Shown here in pieces: positions 7,605 to 13,550 of a stretch of DNA of 38,804 bases; positions within the stretch are counted from its first letter, which is position 1, and every line of letters begins with the position of its first letter. This DNA comes from Clostridia bacterium (lineage in GTDB: Bacteria; Bacillota; Clostridia; Peptostreptococcales; Anaerovoracaceae), in the NCBI GenBank assembly GCA_024403065.1, contig JAKSSM010000002.1, positions 1 through 38,804 on the forward strand, given 5' to 3'. The translations under genes were made by a program, and so were the position numbers. A model generated the notes under the pieces. It saw only the letters and a list, made by a program, of their open reading frames with translations, searched no databases and had not been told where the DNA came from.

Positions 7605-7630
7605 AAAAAAGTAACGGCGTTGCCGTTACT
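7605..7630 (-). terminator. Rho-independent terminator overlapping the lipid-kinase stop codon
   Basis: Perfect stem AGTAACGGC/GCCGTTACT with a 3-base loop, followed on the minus strand by TTTTTT. The TAA stop at 7626-7628 is part of the 5' arm. It closes the DUF5685 operon. Confidence 0.85.
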
Positions 7631-8531
7631 TCTGTCTTTTCTTCATTACAAGATCAATTGCATTATGCTGATTCTTTATGAAAATTTCTTCGCAGCCCTG
7701 CTGATATTCTCCATCCAGTGTCCAGTTGTTTTCTCCTGATGTAGTAATTTTGAATTCAGAATCATTTACAAATGTAACAAGACTGTCATTATTGAAATTC
7801 TGCGTTGAAAGAATTGAAATAATTTCTCCAAGTTCAATCATATCCATAGGCATTTTTACCAGTAGAAGTTCAAATTTTCCATCTGCCATATCTACAAACT
7901 TGTCACTTAATGTAAGAATTCCTGCAATTGATTTTGAGTTGCTGATTGCACCAAAGATATAGTCACCATCAAATACCTTTCCTGATGATGTTTCAATTCT
8001 GATATTCGTTGCTCTTATTGAAGGTATTGAGTTTATACCACCAAGAATATATGCAAGATGTCCAAGGGCATTCTTTACATTCTGTGGAGTTTCATATGAT
8101 ACACTTGTAACTGCACCAAAGGATGCAACATATGTGAATGGTCTTCCGTTGAAATCACCTACATCGAACGTAATAGGATATCCACTTACAATATCCTTTG
8201 CAGCCTGTACCACATTCTTTGAAAGACCAAGGCTCTGTGCAAAGTCGTTTGTGCTTCCACATGGAATATATCCGATAGGGGTTCTTACCCCACTCTTAAT
8301 AACACCTGCAACGGTTTCATTGAATGTACCGTCTCCTCCTGCACATACAATCAGATCAAACTGCTTAGAATATTCTTTTGCATATTCTGTTGCGTCTCCA
8401 AGTCTTGTTGTTGTAAGTACTGTTGTCATGAAACCTGCTTTTGTGAATACATCAACAATTTCAGTCAGCATCTTATTCACTTTCATCTGACCGGAACATG
8501 GATTTACAATAAGAAGTACTTTTCTTTTCAT
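7626..8531 (-). CDS. Diacylglycerol-kinase-family lipid kinase (DagK/YegS-like)
   Basis: Phosphorylates a lipid, most likely diacylglycerol, at the membrane with ATP and returns it to phosphatidate for phospholipid synthesis. 301 residues. The catalytic-domain signatures are VNPCSG at 9-14, CAGGDGTFNE at 63-72 (the GGDGT nucleotide loop) and IGYIPCGSTNDFA at 86-98. The C-terminal beta domain contains LDGEYQ. The exact lipid is not certain, since bacterial members differ. The start shares its first base with the rdgB stop (TAATG) and has GGAGGG upstream, so it is translationally coupled. It is the last gene of a four-gene operon. Confidence 0.9.
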   Translation of the reverse strand: MKRKVLLIVNPCSGQMKVNKMLTEIVDVFTKAGFMTTVLTTTRLGDATEYAKEYSKQFDLIVCAGGDGTFNETVAGVIKSGVRTPIGYIPCGSTNDFAQSLGLSKNVVQAAKDIVSGYPITFDVGDFNGRPFTYVASFGAVTSVSYETPQNVKNALGHLAYILGGINSIPSIRATNIRIETSSGKVFDGDYIFGAISNSKSIAGILTLSDKFVDMADGKFELLLVKMPMDMIELGEIISILSTQNFNNDSLVTFVNDSEFKITTSGENNWTLDGEYQQGCEEIFIKNQHNAIDLVMKKRQK

Positions 8532-9140: not shown

Positions 9141-9806
9141 CTAAATACAGCAGAATACCGGCATTCCCAAACCACTGCATGGTGCAGCAAGACAGCTGCA
9201 TAAAAGTGCTCTGCTGCAGCATGTAAGTACTCTGCTTCCTATATAGTCCATAGACGTTGGATTTCCACCATAGCGTCCACTCATTGACTGGTATCTTGAT
9301 TCTCCACTCATTATATCATTGAAAAGATCTCTATAAAGGAGATTGTCCGGTTCGAATTTAAGCGACTGGGCTGCATGCTCCTGGGCAGTTGAGATATTAC
9401 CGATATAGTAGTTTGCCCATGCACTCAGATAGTACCATCTGCCATCACGGTTCTTTACATTGGAAAGAACATTTATGCCTTCCCTGTAATAGCCGTTATT
9501 GATGTAACTTGCAGCGGATCTCAGGTACATATCATCCTGAGATTCAGTTTTCTGCTCATTTTCAGTGTATGTACTGTATCCGTAATTTCTGTAGTTGTAC
9601 GCGCCAGATACATTTTTACCCTGTCTTTCATCCATAATCATATTGTATGCCTGCTGAACCTCTTTGAATTTTTCTTCATAGGCTTTCTGATTAGGATTAC
9701 CCACATTGGCATCAGGATGATACTTTCTTGAAAGAATTCTGTATTTACTTTTAATTTCTACATCGGATGCATCATATGCTACACCCAATACCTTATACGG
9801 ATCCAT
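9141..9806 (-). CDS. J-domain protein with a cysteine-rich C-terminal tail
   Basis: The N-terminal J domain (about 1-60, MDPYKVLGV, with the HPD motif at 30-32) should stimulate an Hsp70/DnaK ATPase. A short linker rich in Tyr and Asn follows, then a TPR-like helical pair (about 95-165), then a tail in which seven of the last 26 residues are Cys (196, 197, 203, 205, 210, 219, 220), ending Phe-Cys-Cys-Ile. There is no zinc-finger domain of the DnaJ type. The tail could bind metal, carry lipid or form disulfides. The ATG at 9804-9806 lies inside the end of the DUF5685 gene (14-base overlap), so the two are made together. In my recollection this pairing with DUF5685 recurs in Clostridia, which suggests a shared job. 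Confidence 0.85.
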   Translation of the reverse strand: MDPYKVLGVAYDASDVEIKSKYRILSRKYHPDANVGNPNQKAYEEKFKEVQQAYNMIMDERQGKNVSGAYNYRNYGYSTYTENEQKTESQDDMYLRSAASYINNGYYREGINVLSNVKNRDGRWYYLSAWANYYIGNISTAQEHAAQSLKFEPDNLLYRDLFNDIMSGESRYQSMSGRYGGNPTSMDYIGSRVLTCCSRALLCSCLAAPCSGLGMPVFCCI

Positions 9807-10638
9807 CTTCCTTTTTCTTATCCTTTGCTGTCTTCTTTTCAGTATATCTTTCCCATACACCGGAATAAAGAATATTTCTCAATATTTCCGTGTTGGTAAG
9901 AAGTGGTAGTCTTTCAAAATATGCTGTGCACTCACTGATCATTAGCATGAGAAGTCTCATAACCTTTTCTTCAAAATCAGCTTCTGTGCTTAACATTTTC
10001 AATGGATTATATGAATCATTTTCTGTATCATCTTCAAGGTCTTCATAGGCATCAAGAAGATATATGAATTTTCCGAGAAAGAATCCGGTTTTGTACAGGT
10101 CATCTTTAAACTCATCATCCCTGTATGCAAATACTTCCCCCATTATTTCACCAAATATGCCAGATACTGCATCAGGTGACTCTTCTTTATTCTTTTCAAG
10201 AGCAGAAAGTTCCTTAAGTTTATCTTTTATAACTGCACTTTTCTCTTCATATGCTGATGAGATTTTCTTTACTTTCCTTTTGAGTAAAAGCATCCCTATT
10301 CTGGATTTAAGACTTCTGTCATCATTCCAGTCATCAAGAAGCTTATAGTATGTAAGCAGGATGCACATATCTGAACTGTATACTGATGCACTGCTTTTTC
10401 TTTCCTCATGTTTTTTGAAAGGCTTTATGAAGCATCTTCTCATTTCAGCCTTCTCATCTTCATCATAGAGGTCAGCAAGAAGCATTACAAGAAATACCAT
10501 ATCATAGTTCAGTGTTACTCTTCCAATGAGTCCGAAATTCTCGTTCAGAACTCTGCAGAGGCCACAATAATAACTCTGATAGCGATCATATTCTTTAATT
10601 TTCAGTTCAGGTCTGTTGACCTTTACATATCCAAACAT
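9793..10638 (-). CDS. DUF5685 family protein, all-helical, function unknown
   Basis: 281 residues, predicted mostly helical, no signal peptide. The N-terminus MFGYVKVNRPELKI and the YYCGLC motif (23-28) fit DUF5685. Two Asp-rich motifs stand out: LDDWNDD at 101-107, and DAYEDLEDD at 196-204 preceded by GFFLGKF and followed by NDSYNPL. Their spacing and surroundings recall the two metal-binding motifs of squalene/phytoene-synthase-type enzymes; this is inference, not an established assignment. The C-terminus is a charged Lys-rich tail. The ATG has no ribosome site, and a -10 box lies six bases upstream, so the mRNA may be leaderless. It is the first gene of the operon with the J-domain protein, rdgB and the lipid kinase. 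Confidence 0.8.
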   Translation of the reverse strand: MFGYVKVNRPELKIKEYDRYQSYYCGLCRVLNENFGLIGRVTLNYDMVFLVMLLADLYDEDEKAEMRRCFIKPFKKHEERKSSASVYSSDMCILLTYYKLLDDWNDDRSLKSRIGMLLLKRKVKKISSAYEEKSAVIKDKLKELSALEKNKEESPDAVSGIFGEIMGEVFAYRDDEFKDDLYKTGFFLGKFIYLLDAYEDLEDDTENDSYNPLKMLSTEADFEEKVMRLLMLMISECTAYFERLPLLTNTEILRNILYSGVWERYTEKKTAKDKKKEDGSV

Positions 10639-10644
10639 AGATAT

Positions 10645-10675
10645 AATATATCATAAACAGAAGGCCAATTGTGAA
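10645..10675 (-). promoter_or_regulatory. Extended -10 promoter giving a leaderless DUF5685 transcript
   Basis: Minus strand: -10 TATATT (10645-10650) preceded by TGA (TATGATATATT). A possible -35 TTCACA (10670-10675) is 19 bases away, which is long. Six bases separate the -10 from the ATG, so transcription would begin at or next to the start codon. Confidence 0.5.
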
Positions 10676-10726: not shown

Positions 10727-12067
10727 CTATTCACAGTGAACGTCTTTAAACTCTTCTTTCTTTTCAGGTTCAACGTAGTTTTCACTTCTGTCAAGTTCTC
10801 TTCTTAAACGGATAAGCTTTCTTGTAAGATAGTTTACTTCGTAGATTCTCTTTGTGACTGTATAGCTGTTATCTTCACGATACATGAAGATTTTAGCCAT
10901 TGTTTCAGTGAGTTCATTTAAAGTATCCTCAACAGCCTTTGAGAAATCTTCGCTTAAATCTCTTGAACCATCTTCAAGATTCTTTCCACCTCTGAAGAAA
11001 TCTACTGTTGAAATACTGTAGTGATATTCAATTCCAAAAAGGTCCTGAACCTTAAGGGAAAGACTGTTTTTTATATCATTGAGATGTGCTTCAAGCATTC
11101 TCGGATTGCTTTTGAACTGACTTCCGAATTCCTTTGCTTCCGCTTTGATTTCATCAAATGATGAGTTGAGTTTAAGGAACGCTTCATCAAATTCCTTGTG
11201 AGTCATCTGAAGTGTCTTTCTGTAGAGACTGATCTGTGAAAGAGCTGAAGCTCCGATATCCTTCATCTTGAGTTTGCATGATGAAGCAATTATATCCTTT
11301 ACAGTTGTCTCACAATCCTTCTTTATTGCTTCTTTCAGCTCCTCAATGCCAGCCTTTGTTTTGGCACTGATTGGGAAAAGCTGAACAGATTCAACCTCCA
11401 TAAGCTTTGATATAAGTTTCTGGCAGTATGAAAGATATGCATTAAGGTCTTCCTCATCAATTGTATCTATTTTGTTTACGGCAAAATAGAACTTCGATGC
11501 ATAGCTTTTTGCATTCTTGAGAAAGTCTATTTCAATCTGATTGATTGGGCTGTCAACTGAAAGCATGAAGATTACTGCATCACTTTCCTTCACATAGGAA
11601 TATGCTGCATCAGTATTCTTCTGATGAACAGATCCTACACCAGGAGTATCTACAAATGTCACTCCTCCTTTAAGGAAATCTGACTCAGCGAAAATTTCAA
11701 CATCGTAAACACCAAGTTCGTTGTTGCTGTTTTCCTGTTCGTTGATGAACTGAGACATTTCGTCGAACTCGATTTCTTTTACGATACCATTGTCAAATCT
11801 TACAGTACAAGCCTTCTTTCCATAGTCAATCTTTGTAACAACAGCAGTTACAGGAACAATTCCAACAGGAAGAATGTCTTCACCAAGAATAGCATTGACT
11901 GTTTTGCTCTTGCCACGCTTGAACTGACCGATAACAGAAATGGTAATCTTCTGATTTTCAAGTTTGTCTATAAGCTCGTTTGTTCTTTCGAGTTCTCCCT
12001 TTGTAAGCTCATACTCTGAAAAAACATCACGCATCTCTTTTGTAATTTCTAAAATACTTCTGATCAA
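10727..12067 (-). CDS. Dynamin-family GTPase
   Basis: 446 residues with a complete GTPase domain of the dynamin superfamily: P-loop GQFKRGKS at 47-54, switch I Thr in PVTAV (72-76), DTPGVGS at 140-146 and NKID at 198-201. A long helical region (about 255-446) follows, as in bacterial dynamin-like proteins that bind and remodel membranes. No transmembrane helix is visible, so it is probably a peripheral membrane protein. The likely start is TTG at 12065-12067, nine bases after AAGGG; an ATG 11 codons later is the alternative. The gene begins four bases after the ferredoxin stop and ends the radical SAM/ferredoxin operon. The target membrane and role are unknown. Confidence 0.85.
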   Translation of the reverse strand: MIRSILEITKEMRDVFSEYELTKGELERTNELIDKLENQKITISVIGQFKRGKSKTVNAILGEDILPVGIVPVTAVVTKIDYGKKACTVRFDNGIVKEIEFDEMSQFINEQENSNNELGVYDVEIFAESDFLKGGVTFVDTPGVGSVHQKNTDAAYSYVKESDAVIFMLSVDSPINQIEIDFLKNAKSYASKFYFAVNKIDTIDEEDLNAYLSYCQKLISKLMEVESVQLFPISAKTKAGIEELKEAIKKDCETTVKDIIASSCKLKMKDIGASALSQISLYRKTLQMTHKEFDEAFLKLNSSFDEIKAEAKEFGSQFKSNPRMLEAHLNDIKNSLSLKVQDLFGIEYHYSISTVDFFRGGKNLEDGSRDLSEDFSKAVEDTLNELTETMAKIFMYREDNSYTVTKRIYEVNYLTRKLIRLRRELDRSENYVEPEKKEEFKDVHCE

Positions 12068-12070
12068 TTG

Positions 12071-12568
12071 TTATTTCCCTTCATAGAATCTGCAGTCTTT
12101 ACATATCGGGTCATTTTCCCTTCTCCATTCGTCGCAGTACATAGGACGAAGGATAAGGTTCTCTGGGATTTTATCACCAAGAAGTGATTTTACAGCTGCA
12201 ATCTGGCATAATGTTGCAACAAATTCTGTTCTCGCACCAGATCTTACGCTTCTCATTACCTGTCTGTAATGTGCTGGAAGATCACGGCTTTCAAATGCTT
12301 CCTCATACTGATAGAACTGCTCAAATTCAGGGAGTTCAACAGGATTGAAAAGCGGACAGAAAAGAACGCAGGCATTGCATTTCTGACATCCGTTTTCATC
12401 ACGGACAGGAACCATTTTCTTTGTATCCTTTTTTACAAAATCACGTGAAGCTAAAACAGATGCTGCTTTTTCGTCATTTCTGTCATGCATCTTAAGGCAC
12501 TGATATTTGCAGGCCACAACACATGCACCACAGCCATTACAATTTTTTACTGAATCTACAATCTGCAT
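12071..12568 (-). CDS. Two-cluster [4Fe-4S] ferredoxin-like protein with a C-terminal extension
   Basis: 165 residues. Two CxxCxxCxxxC motifs (Cys10-13-16-20 and Cys61-64-67-71) each bind a [4Fe-4S] cluster, but they are separated by a roughly 40-residue insert, unlike a compact 2[4Fe-4S] ferredoxin. The C-terminal part (about 75-165) contains a helical segment and three further Cys in PMYCDEW and ICKDC, which may bind metal. It is a plausible electron carrier for the radical SAM enzyme encoded just upstream. The ATG at 12566-12568 begins two bases before that gene's stop in minus-strand order, and the ribosome site AGGGAAT lies in its last codons. Confidence 0.85.
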   Translation of the reverse strand: MQIVDSVKNCNGCGACVVACKYQCLKMHDRNDEKAASVLASRDFVKKDTKKMVPVRDENGCQKCNACVLFCPLFNPVELPEFEQFYQYEEAFESRDLPAHYRQVMRSVRSGARTEFVATLCQIAAVKSLLGDKIPENLILRPMYCDEWRRENDPICKDCRFYEGK

Positions 12569-12569
12569 A

Positions 12570-13481
12570 TTAATATTCCCTGTTTCTGTATGCTTCAAGA
12601 TCAAGTTCTTCACCATAGTCATTCCAGTCGGATCTGATGATTCCTCTTGGGTTTACTATAATGTCATTGATTTCCTGAGTTCCATCTTCTTTAATGATTG
12701 TTGAATATGGAAGAGTTCTGTGGTATGTAACATTTCTGTTTTTTACTGCGCAGTTCCATCTGAAGTCATTCTTTGAAATGCAGTTTTCTGCAAACCACTT
12801 TTCAATAGCTTCAGTTCCATTTACACCAAGTGCACTTAAAACATTTCTGAATGTTGGAACTTCATCGTTGTCAAGGATATAAAGGTTATCAAGAGTAGTC
12901 TTTGTATAGTCCTCTCTGAACTGAACACCTACCACTGACTTTCTGTTTTCAAATCTTTCGATGAAATCCTTTACAAGAAGACCATCTTCTGCATTGAAAA
13001 GAACACAGTTGATTCTTACAGGTACAGGAATAACATCAAATACCATATCGTCACATTCCTTAACATACTTTCTGATATGTCTTGAAACGTTGATGCCTGT
13101 AATAGTATCCTTGTGATCTTCAATAATATCAAGCATGTCGCTTAATGAATTCTTTTCAAGTGGGAAAGTTGTATTAATGAAAAGATTATGTGGTGCAAGC
13201 CCTCTTGCAACACTTTCATCGTTCATTTTCTTAACTGTACTGATGAGAAGTTCGAGACTCTTAAGTTCAGCAAATGGTTCTCCTCCAGTGAATACGAAAT
13301 CGCAGGATGGTGTGATGCTGTGCATAACCTTCATGGATTCGATTACGTTATTAACATCAAAACCTGCATTTTCAAGATAATCCTTTTTATTTACGCAGAA
13401 TGGACAACGGTTACCGCAATCATATGGTGCGAAAACTGTAACTGTTGCTCCCCTCTCATACTGACATGAATATTTGCTCAT
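12570..13481 (-). CDS. Radical SAM enzyme of unknown substrate
   Basis: 303 residues with the canonical CX3CX2C cluster motif (Cys22, Cys26, Cys29 in CGNRCPFC) and the SAM-binding GGEP at 66-69. It should reductively cleave S-adenosylmethionine and generate a 5'-deoxyadenosyl radical. No SPASM-type Cys-rich extension is evident, though single Cys lie in ENCISK and WNCAVK. The nearest architecture is the activase/MoaA-like group, but the substrate is not identifiable. The ATG follows AAAGGAG. It heads a three-gene operon with a ferredoxin-like protein and a dynamin-like GTPase. Confidence 0.85.
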   Translation of the reverse strand: MSKYSCQYERGATVTVFAPYDCGNRCPFCVNKKDYLENAGFDVNNVIESMKVMHSITPSCDFVFTGGEPFAELKSLELLISTVKKMNDESVARGLAPHNLFINTTFPLEKNSLSDMLDIIEDHKDTITGINVSRHIRKYVKECDDMVFDVIPVPVRINCVLFNAEDGLLVKDFIERFENRKSVVGVQFREDYTKTTLDNLYILDNDEVPTFRNVLSALGVNGTEAIEKWFAENCISKNDFRWNCAVKNRNVTYHRTLPYSTIIKEDGTQEINDIIVNPRGIIRSDWNDYGEELDLEAYRNREY

Positions 13482-13521
13482 TCCAAACTCCTTTCGAAAA
13501 AATAGTAACAAATACCAACGA

Positions 13522-13550
13522 ATTTTAACATAAAATATGAGTAAAGTCAC
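13522..13550 (-). promoter_or_regulatory. Promoter of the radical SAM-ferredoxin-dynamin operon
   Basis: Minus strand: -35 GTGACT (13545-13550), 17-base spacer, -10 TAAAAT (13522-13527) preceded by TGT, an extended -10. The expected start is about 34 bases before the ATG. Confidence 0.5.

Follow-up and report, generated by a model that had tools for sequence, protein, structure and literature searches.

In the 38,804-nucleotide stretch of clostridial DNA analyzed here (the window), the gene for a DUF5685 protein overlaps the gene for a J-domain protein with a Cys-rich C-terminal tail. The best explanation that we can offer for this pair, with a probability of about 0.5, is that DUF5685 attaches a prenyl group to the Cys tail and tethers an Hsp70 co-chaperone to the membrane, a chemistry that we infer. 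The fold of DUF5685, the conservation of its motifs, the conservation and position of the tail cysteines, and the genetic coupling of the two genes were all obtained by computation. The fold superfamily and DUF5685 as a named family were already known. In the literature searched, a single paper mentions DUF5685, listing it among other domain names, and no account of DUF5685 function or of a DUF5685/J-protein module was found.

The Gene Pair in the Window

The pair and its surroundings have the following features.

9141-9806, minus strand: J-domain/TPR-like protein with Cys tail, 221 amino acids from ATG (DnaJ E 1.1e-18)
9144-9221, minus strand: Cys tail CCSRALLCSCLAAPCSGLGMPVFCCI, penultimate residue Cys (translation and tail alignment)
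9339-9437, minus strand: TPR-like segment, residues 124-156 (weak TPR matches; kept in partners without a J domain)
9621-9803, minus strand: J domain, residues 2-62 (PF00226 E 1.1e-18), with HPD residues 30-32 at 9711-9719
9793-9806, minus strand: overlap of the DUF5685 and J genes, exactly 14 bases (overlapping frames are usual in homologues)
9793-10638, minus strand: DUF5685 protein (PF18937), 281 amino acids (Pfam E 7.7e-105), predicted class I isoprenoid-synthase fold
10003-10062, minus strand: conserved second Asp motif, Y193xxD196xxxD200xxxD204...Y210-N211-P212, with the QxxNxxxDxxxD...Y spacing of squalene/phytoene synthases
10318-10344, minus strand: conserved first Asp motif and preceding Lys, K99-LL-D102-DWN-D106-D107, aligning with RxxDDxxD of squalene/phytoene synthases
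10432-10434, minus strand: C69, third invariant Cys (76/76), in a β-hairpin insertion (residues 63-81)
10555-10566, minus strand: C25-G-L-C28 (CxxC), both Cys 76/76
10721-10698: terminator-like hairpin between the DUF5685/J pair and the upstream dynamin-like gene
Downstream neighbors (Pfam): XTP/dITP pyrophosphatase (Ham1), then a lipid-kinase-like gene

Translation verified the residue positions given for DUF5685 in the initial annotation (LDDWNDD at 101-107 and DAYEDLEDD at 196-204, preceded by GFFLGKF, which lies at 185-191), as well as the 14-base overlap, the seven Cys in the last 26 residues of the J protein, and its Phe-Cys-Cys-Ile end. In a search of its own genome for CCI-stop patterns, the J gene was the only gene-length frame ending in CCI, with no second gene-length candidate. 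NCBIfam has no model for DUF5685. PADLOC gave no defense match for DUF5685 and only a marginal ShosT match for the J protein.

The lipid-kinase-like gene, diacylglycerol-kinase-like (7626-8531, minus strand), lies two genes downstream of the J gene and shares one base with the XTP/dITP pyrophosphatase gene; a link to the lipid theme is possible but uncertain. Upstream of the pair, the dynamin-like GTPase (10727-13550, minus strand; Dynamin_N E 1e-29; LeoA-like in PADLOC, E 6e-15) is preceded in its reading direction by a two-cluster ferredoxin-like protein and a radical SAM protein, whose frames overlap. These genes are possibly a separate unit.

Predicted Fold of DUF5685

Sequence searches of the PDB, with either the single sequence or a profile, gave no match for DUF5685. 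The AlphaFold2 model (pLDDT 93.7, pTM 0.91) is composed of helices and a β-hairpin at residues 63-81; the earlier description of the protein as all-helical is thus right for most of the chain but not for the hairpin. Foldseek comparison of the model with the PDB returned as best matches MoeN5 (E 3.6e-4) and trans-polyprenyl diphosphate synthases (E to 8e-4). On structural re-alignment, all 50 of the best 50 PDB chains were isoprenoid-synthase-fold enzymes (polyprenyl diphosphate synthases and the prenyltransferase MoeN5). The Z-scores of 15.7-18.9 over 219-247 residues (best Z 18.9, rmsd 3.1, 235 residues) are well above the value of about 13 quoted for chance helical bundles. The model therefore supports, with high confidence, a predicted class I isoprenoid-synthase fold for DUF5685. 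The initial annotation had proposed a diverged member of this fold, and structure prediction and fold search, which could have returned an unrelated fold, bore the proposal out.

By sequence, the fold is scarcely visible. Comparison of profiles by hhalign gave P 9e-5 for DUF5685 against squalene/phytoene synthases, with three decoys at 0.04-0.37. The second Asp motif was in register, as was the first in a relaxed alignment. The corresponding Pfam family, PF00494, matched weakly in 3 of 35 DUF5685 members (best E 0.0018); the window protein itself does not match PF00494 in Pfam, and DUF5685 scores fall below the curated cut-off. The two families have the [KR]xxDxxxD and xxxDxxxDxxxD...Y spacing in common, together with the weak profile similarity, but DUF5685 is shorter between the motifs and has the additional Cys and the β-hairpin. 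The hhalign comparison with polyprenyl synthases was discarded because its P of 0.04, although the alignment was in register, was no better than that of the decoys, and the fold assignment therefore rests on structure and on the similarity to squalene/phytoene synthases.

Despite the predicted fold common to DUF5685, MoeN5, and the trans-isoprenyl diphosphate synthases (PF00348; Z up to 18.9), identity is 9-16%, and none of the 35 members matched PF00348. The trans-isoprenyl diphosphate synthase motifs DDxx(xx)D and FQxxDDxxD are likewise absent: 23 of 76 sequences have a residue other than Asp at position 103, and none has Asp at position 197.

Conservation of the Asp Motifs and Cysteines

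Homologues were collected as 36 loci, from which 35 proteins were aligned, and later as a set of 76 that includes very divergent sequences. Twelve residues are invariant in all 76: G3, Y24, C25, C28, C69, D102, E148, G189, Y193, D196, D200, and D204. D106 (74/76), N211 (75/76), and K99 (67/76) are nearly so, with Asn, His, or Gln replacing K99 in some lineages. Judged from sequence, K99xxD102xxxD106 and Y193xxD196xxxD200xxxD204...YNP have the spacing of R-xx-D-D-xx-D and Q-xx-N-xxx-D-xxx-D...Y in squalene/phytoene synthases.

In the model, helix 83-107 has D102 and D106 at its end, and helix 178-199 has D196, D200, and D204 at its end. Given the matching fold and the register of the alignment, D102/D106 and D196/D200 would face one cavity, and the Asp motifs would bind Mg-diphosphate. 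Retention of invariant Asp residues would not be expected of a DUF5685 that had lost diphosphate chemistry. To our knowledge, the three invariant Cys have no precedent in the class I isoprenoid-synthase fold.

The Cys Tail of the Partner Protein

In 71 of the 78 loci, the final 30 residues of the partner contain 4 or more Cys, compared with 10 of 733 other open reading frames of at least 150 residues from the loci collected at that stage, which is more than chance would give. Cys is the only residue type present in all 70 tails aligned. Trp, absent from the window tail, occurs in 22 of the 70. The number and spacing of the tail Cys drift freely, from 4 to 17 Cys; one tail class keeps a strict CCECMGGDxxxCC pattern. 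Entire clades have tails ending in CDCI, CCI, SCC, PFC, or CCR.

The last Cys is the final residue in 31 and the penultimate residue in 34 of 69 distinct tails, together 65. When the last 25 residues were shuffled, 33 were expected and none of 2000 shuffles reached 65, a comparison that ignores shared ancestry. The partner tails thus hold their last Cys at a set distance from the C-terminus, resembling Rab-type ends and not CaaX. From the aligned sequences, this pattern looks more like C-terminus recognition, as in prenylated Rab ends, than like a spaced metal site. The Asp motifs proved to be retained across deep divergence, as did the Cys tail, whose conservation among J proteins next to DUF5685 had been left as a question for alignment.

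The J domain is absent, with TPR and tail retained, in loci of Romboutsia type and others of greater divergence (L010, L013-L015, L069, L072, L073, and L079); a TPR match in one such partner and the alignment identify the TPR segment. In L075, a Cys-rich tail of 50 residues, ending in ECFC, is fused to DUF5685 itself. Because J-less partners keep the tail and L075 has it fused, the tail rather than the J domain is the constant partner of DUF5685. A search of 299 genomes with the strict tail found only DUF5685 neighbors at E < 0.05 and thus turned up no wider set of tagged proteins.

Genetic Coupling of DUF5685 and the Tailed Partner

In a sample of 398 genomes from the phylum, 45 had the module, which also occurs in Thermotoga maritima. 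A J/TPR/Cys-tail partner follows DUF5685 in 72 of 78 loci, usually overlapping; the pair is adjacent and on the same strand in 70 of 78, and HPD is present in 62 of the 72 partners. In the family of the window, 68 of 99 genomes contain DUF5685, and the tailed partner is found in 66 of these 68 but in 0 of the 31 genomes that lack DUF5685, counts that ignore shared ancestry. DUF5685 and its partner are unlinked in four genomes, where both are kept and the tail is intact.

A TPR-plus-tail profile gave a strong match in 1 of the 31 DUF5685-negative genomes (G432); weak TPR matches in such genomes (L176-L180) were unrelated TPR proteins. In G432, a J/TPR orthologue directly follows a small membrane gene, c3 (L182:6175-7562), with DUF5685 missing between them. 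This J protein ends in ...FLGTIGRVILFLFMLRMVRVLLALMMSGGMYQIMR, a hydrophobic stretch without Cys, which can be read from its sequence as an anchor in the membrane that has taken the place of a lipid one, in a single case and in a genome that is 77% complete. The divergent clade L070, L074, and L076-L078 has no tailed partner nearby, and DUF5685 may therefore have another substrate there.

Neighboring Genes in Related Loci

A polyprenyl synthetase gene adjoins DUF5685 in four divergent loci without a separate tailed gene (L075, L076, L077, and L078). L077 and L078 have the order Hsp70, polyprenyl synthetase, membrane protein, and then DUF5685 on the opposite strand; the membrane protein matches DUF2232 in L077 and is unclassified in L078. 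Hsp70 is beside DUF5685 in four loci, these two and L039 and L056, where it adjoins the pair. An undecaprenyl diphosphate synthase homologue is near L027. The genome of the window has one polyprenyl synthase and no match to squalene/phytoene synthases.

Several further arrangements were observed. The neighbors of DUF5685 in L075 include, besides the polyprenyl synthetase, a type IV prepilin peptidase-like gene. An 81-residue J-like frame without HPD precedes Hsp70 in L077. A DUF3786 gene immediately precedes DUF5685 in L072 (L072:3543-4088), with a corresponding gene in L069.

Most other loci have one of two small membrane genes. The first, c2, is the usual third gene in related loci and has a predicted ECF S-component fold (TmRibU, Z 11.2); the second, c3, encodes two hydrophobic helices and a Zn ribbon. 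Tail class and membrane gene are associated (30 strict tails with c2, 25 loose tails with c3, and no strict tail with c3), which may simply be phylogeny. An obligate role for c3 as a third part was rejected, as it is present in only 21 of 99 family genomes. The genome of the window has c3 elsewhere, not beside the pair, and no c2 match. The predicted fold of c2 resembles ECF S components (RibU) and DUF2232, but unlike ECF transporters the module has no transporter genes, and c2 is not beside the pair in the window. The last part of the J gene is also covered by the c2 frame (L027:6445-6478, L002:6393-6426, and other loci), in which the CMGGD tail codons read YGRRF, and the c2 start codon is therefore uncertain.

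Comparison with Known Systems

Cys prenylation of proteins is known from eukaryotes. Ydj1/DNAJA1 and cysteine-string protein (DNAJC5) are J co-chaperones that are lipid-anchored via C-terminal or string Cys, DNAJC5 being a precedent for lipidated Cys strings, and the partner of DUF5685 is likewise Cys-tailed. Ydj1/DNAJA1 is farnesylated at its C-terminus (PMC10939075). Eukaryotic farnesyltransferase and the DHHC acyltransferases are unrelated in fold to DUF5685, and the bacterial tail is not CaaX.

A close bacterial parallel in gene organization and fold is offered by ComQ, PalQ, and ChrPC-P, which share the class I isoprenoid-synthase fold and its two Asp motifs (PMC13290415). Their genes lie next to, and sometimes overlap, those of their peptides, as in the DUF5685/J pair (PMC13290415, PMC4008528); comQ and comX can overlap (PMC4008528). 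ComQ-type enzymes prenylate peptides, and ComQ, PalQ, and ChrPC are all Trp-specific (PMC13290415). Immediately ahead of the second Asp motif they carry a conserved Gln (PMC13290415), where DUF5685 has the invariant Tyr-193. Thus the ComQ-type signature of this Gln and a Trp acceptor is absent from DUF5685 and the window tail, and DUF5685 has instead an invariant CxxC...C and a J/TPR Cys-tail partner.

Proposed Function and Alternatives

Prenyl transfer to the tail is the simplest way to account for an active enzyme of isoprenoid fold whose occurrence follows that of a Cys-ended tail. We infer the catalysis, donor, acceptor, Zn, and membrane location as follows. The two Asp motifs would hold Mg2+ and ionize an allylic diphosphate, the probable donor being farnesyl diphosphate made by the single polyprenyl synthase of the genome. 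The prenyl group would be transferred to one or more Cys at the extreme C-terminus of the J-domain/TPR partner, and the lipid would tether the co-chaperone, and via the J domain also DnaK/Hsp70, to the membrane, perhaps near the ECF S-component-like protein or the two-helix Zn-ribbon protein. In DUF5685, the acceptor thiol may be activated by a Zn held in the invariant CxxC...C, a guess by analogy with protein farnesyltransferase, in which Zn has this role (PMC13290415). The fuller proposal, which we hold tentatively and at slightly less than even odds, is of a dedicated bacterial S-prenylation in which DUF5685 is a class I-fold, possibly Zn-assisted Cys prenyltransferase for the co-chaperone tail, giving a counterpart of farnesylated Ydj1/DNAJA1 through an unrelated enzyme. 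Against tail prenylation are the divergent clade without tails and the presence of more Cys (up to 17) than needed. Against Cys as the target is the Trp modification by all known peptide prenyltransferases of this fold (PMC13290415).

It is unlikely, although the motif pattern is closest to squalene/phytoene synthases, that DUF5685 makes or modifies a small isoprenoid, by squalene/phytoene-like condensation or as a terpene, with the J protein as chaperone or adaptor and the tail S-acylated or otherwise inserted in the membrane. The ECF S-component-like neighbor could bind such a small molecule, and the polyprenyl synthase is kept in divergent loci without tails. However, no terpene-pathway enzymes were recognized at the loci examined, and it is the Cys tail and not the J domain that tracks DUF5685, to the point of fusion in L075.

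The initial annotation had also raised a simpler reading in terms of metal. The CxxC...C is invariant in DUF5685, and metal is therefore also possible: the tail would be a Zn or Fe-S site, DUF5685 would share or load the metal via C25, C28, and C69, and the module would be a metal-sensing or metal-delivering chaperone. The strict CCECMGGDxxxCC class and the tails of up to 17 Cys could equally be a metal site. We nevertheless consider this reading rather improbable overall. The last Cys keeps its C-terminal place although Cys number and spacing drift, and the invariant diphosphate/Mg motifs, the polyprenyl synthase neighbors, and the hydrophobic replacement in G432 are left unexplained. Lipidation of the tail is favored over metal by the placement of the last Cys, by the loss of the tail with the loss of DUF5685, and by the polyprenyl synthase neighbors.

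Replacement of K99 in some lineages might suggest a catalytically dead scaffold, a prenyl-diphosphate sensor recruiting the co-chaperone to sites of lipid-carrier synthesis, but this is very improbable, as none of the 76 sequences departs from the four Asp, Y193, E148, or G189, as expected of an enzyme.

A widespread and conserved clostridial module links a predicted enzyme of isoprenoid fold with an Hsp70 co-chaperone that terminates in Cys, and DUF5685 gains a testable function. If S-prenylation holds, the finding would be categorically more interesting than a variation on a known fold superfamily, giving bacteria a lipid-anchored chaperone and adding a new enzyme class. As DUF5685 is inherited together with the Cys-tailed co-chaperone, these bacteria may lipid-anchor a chaperone much as eukaryotic cells do.
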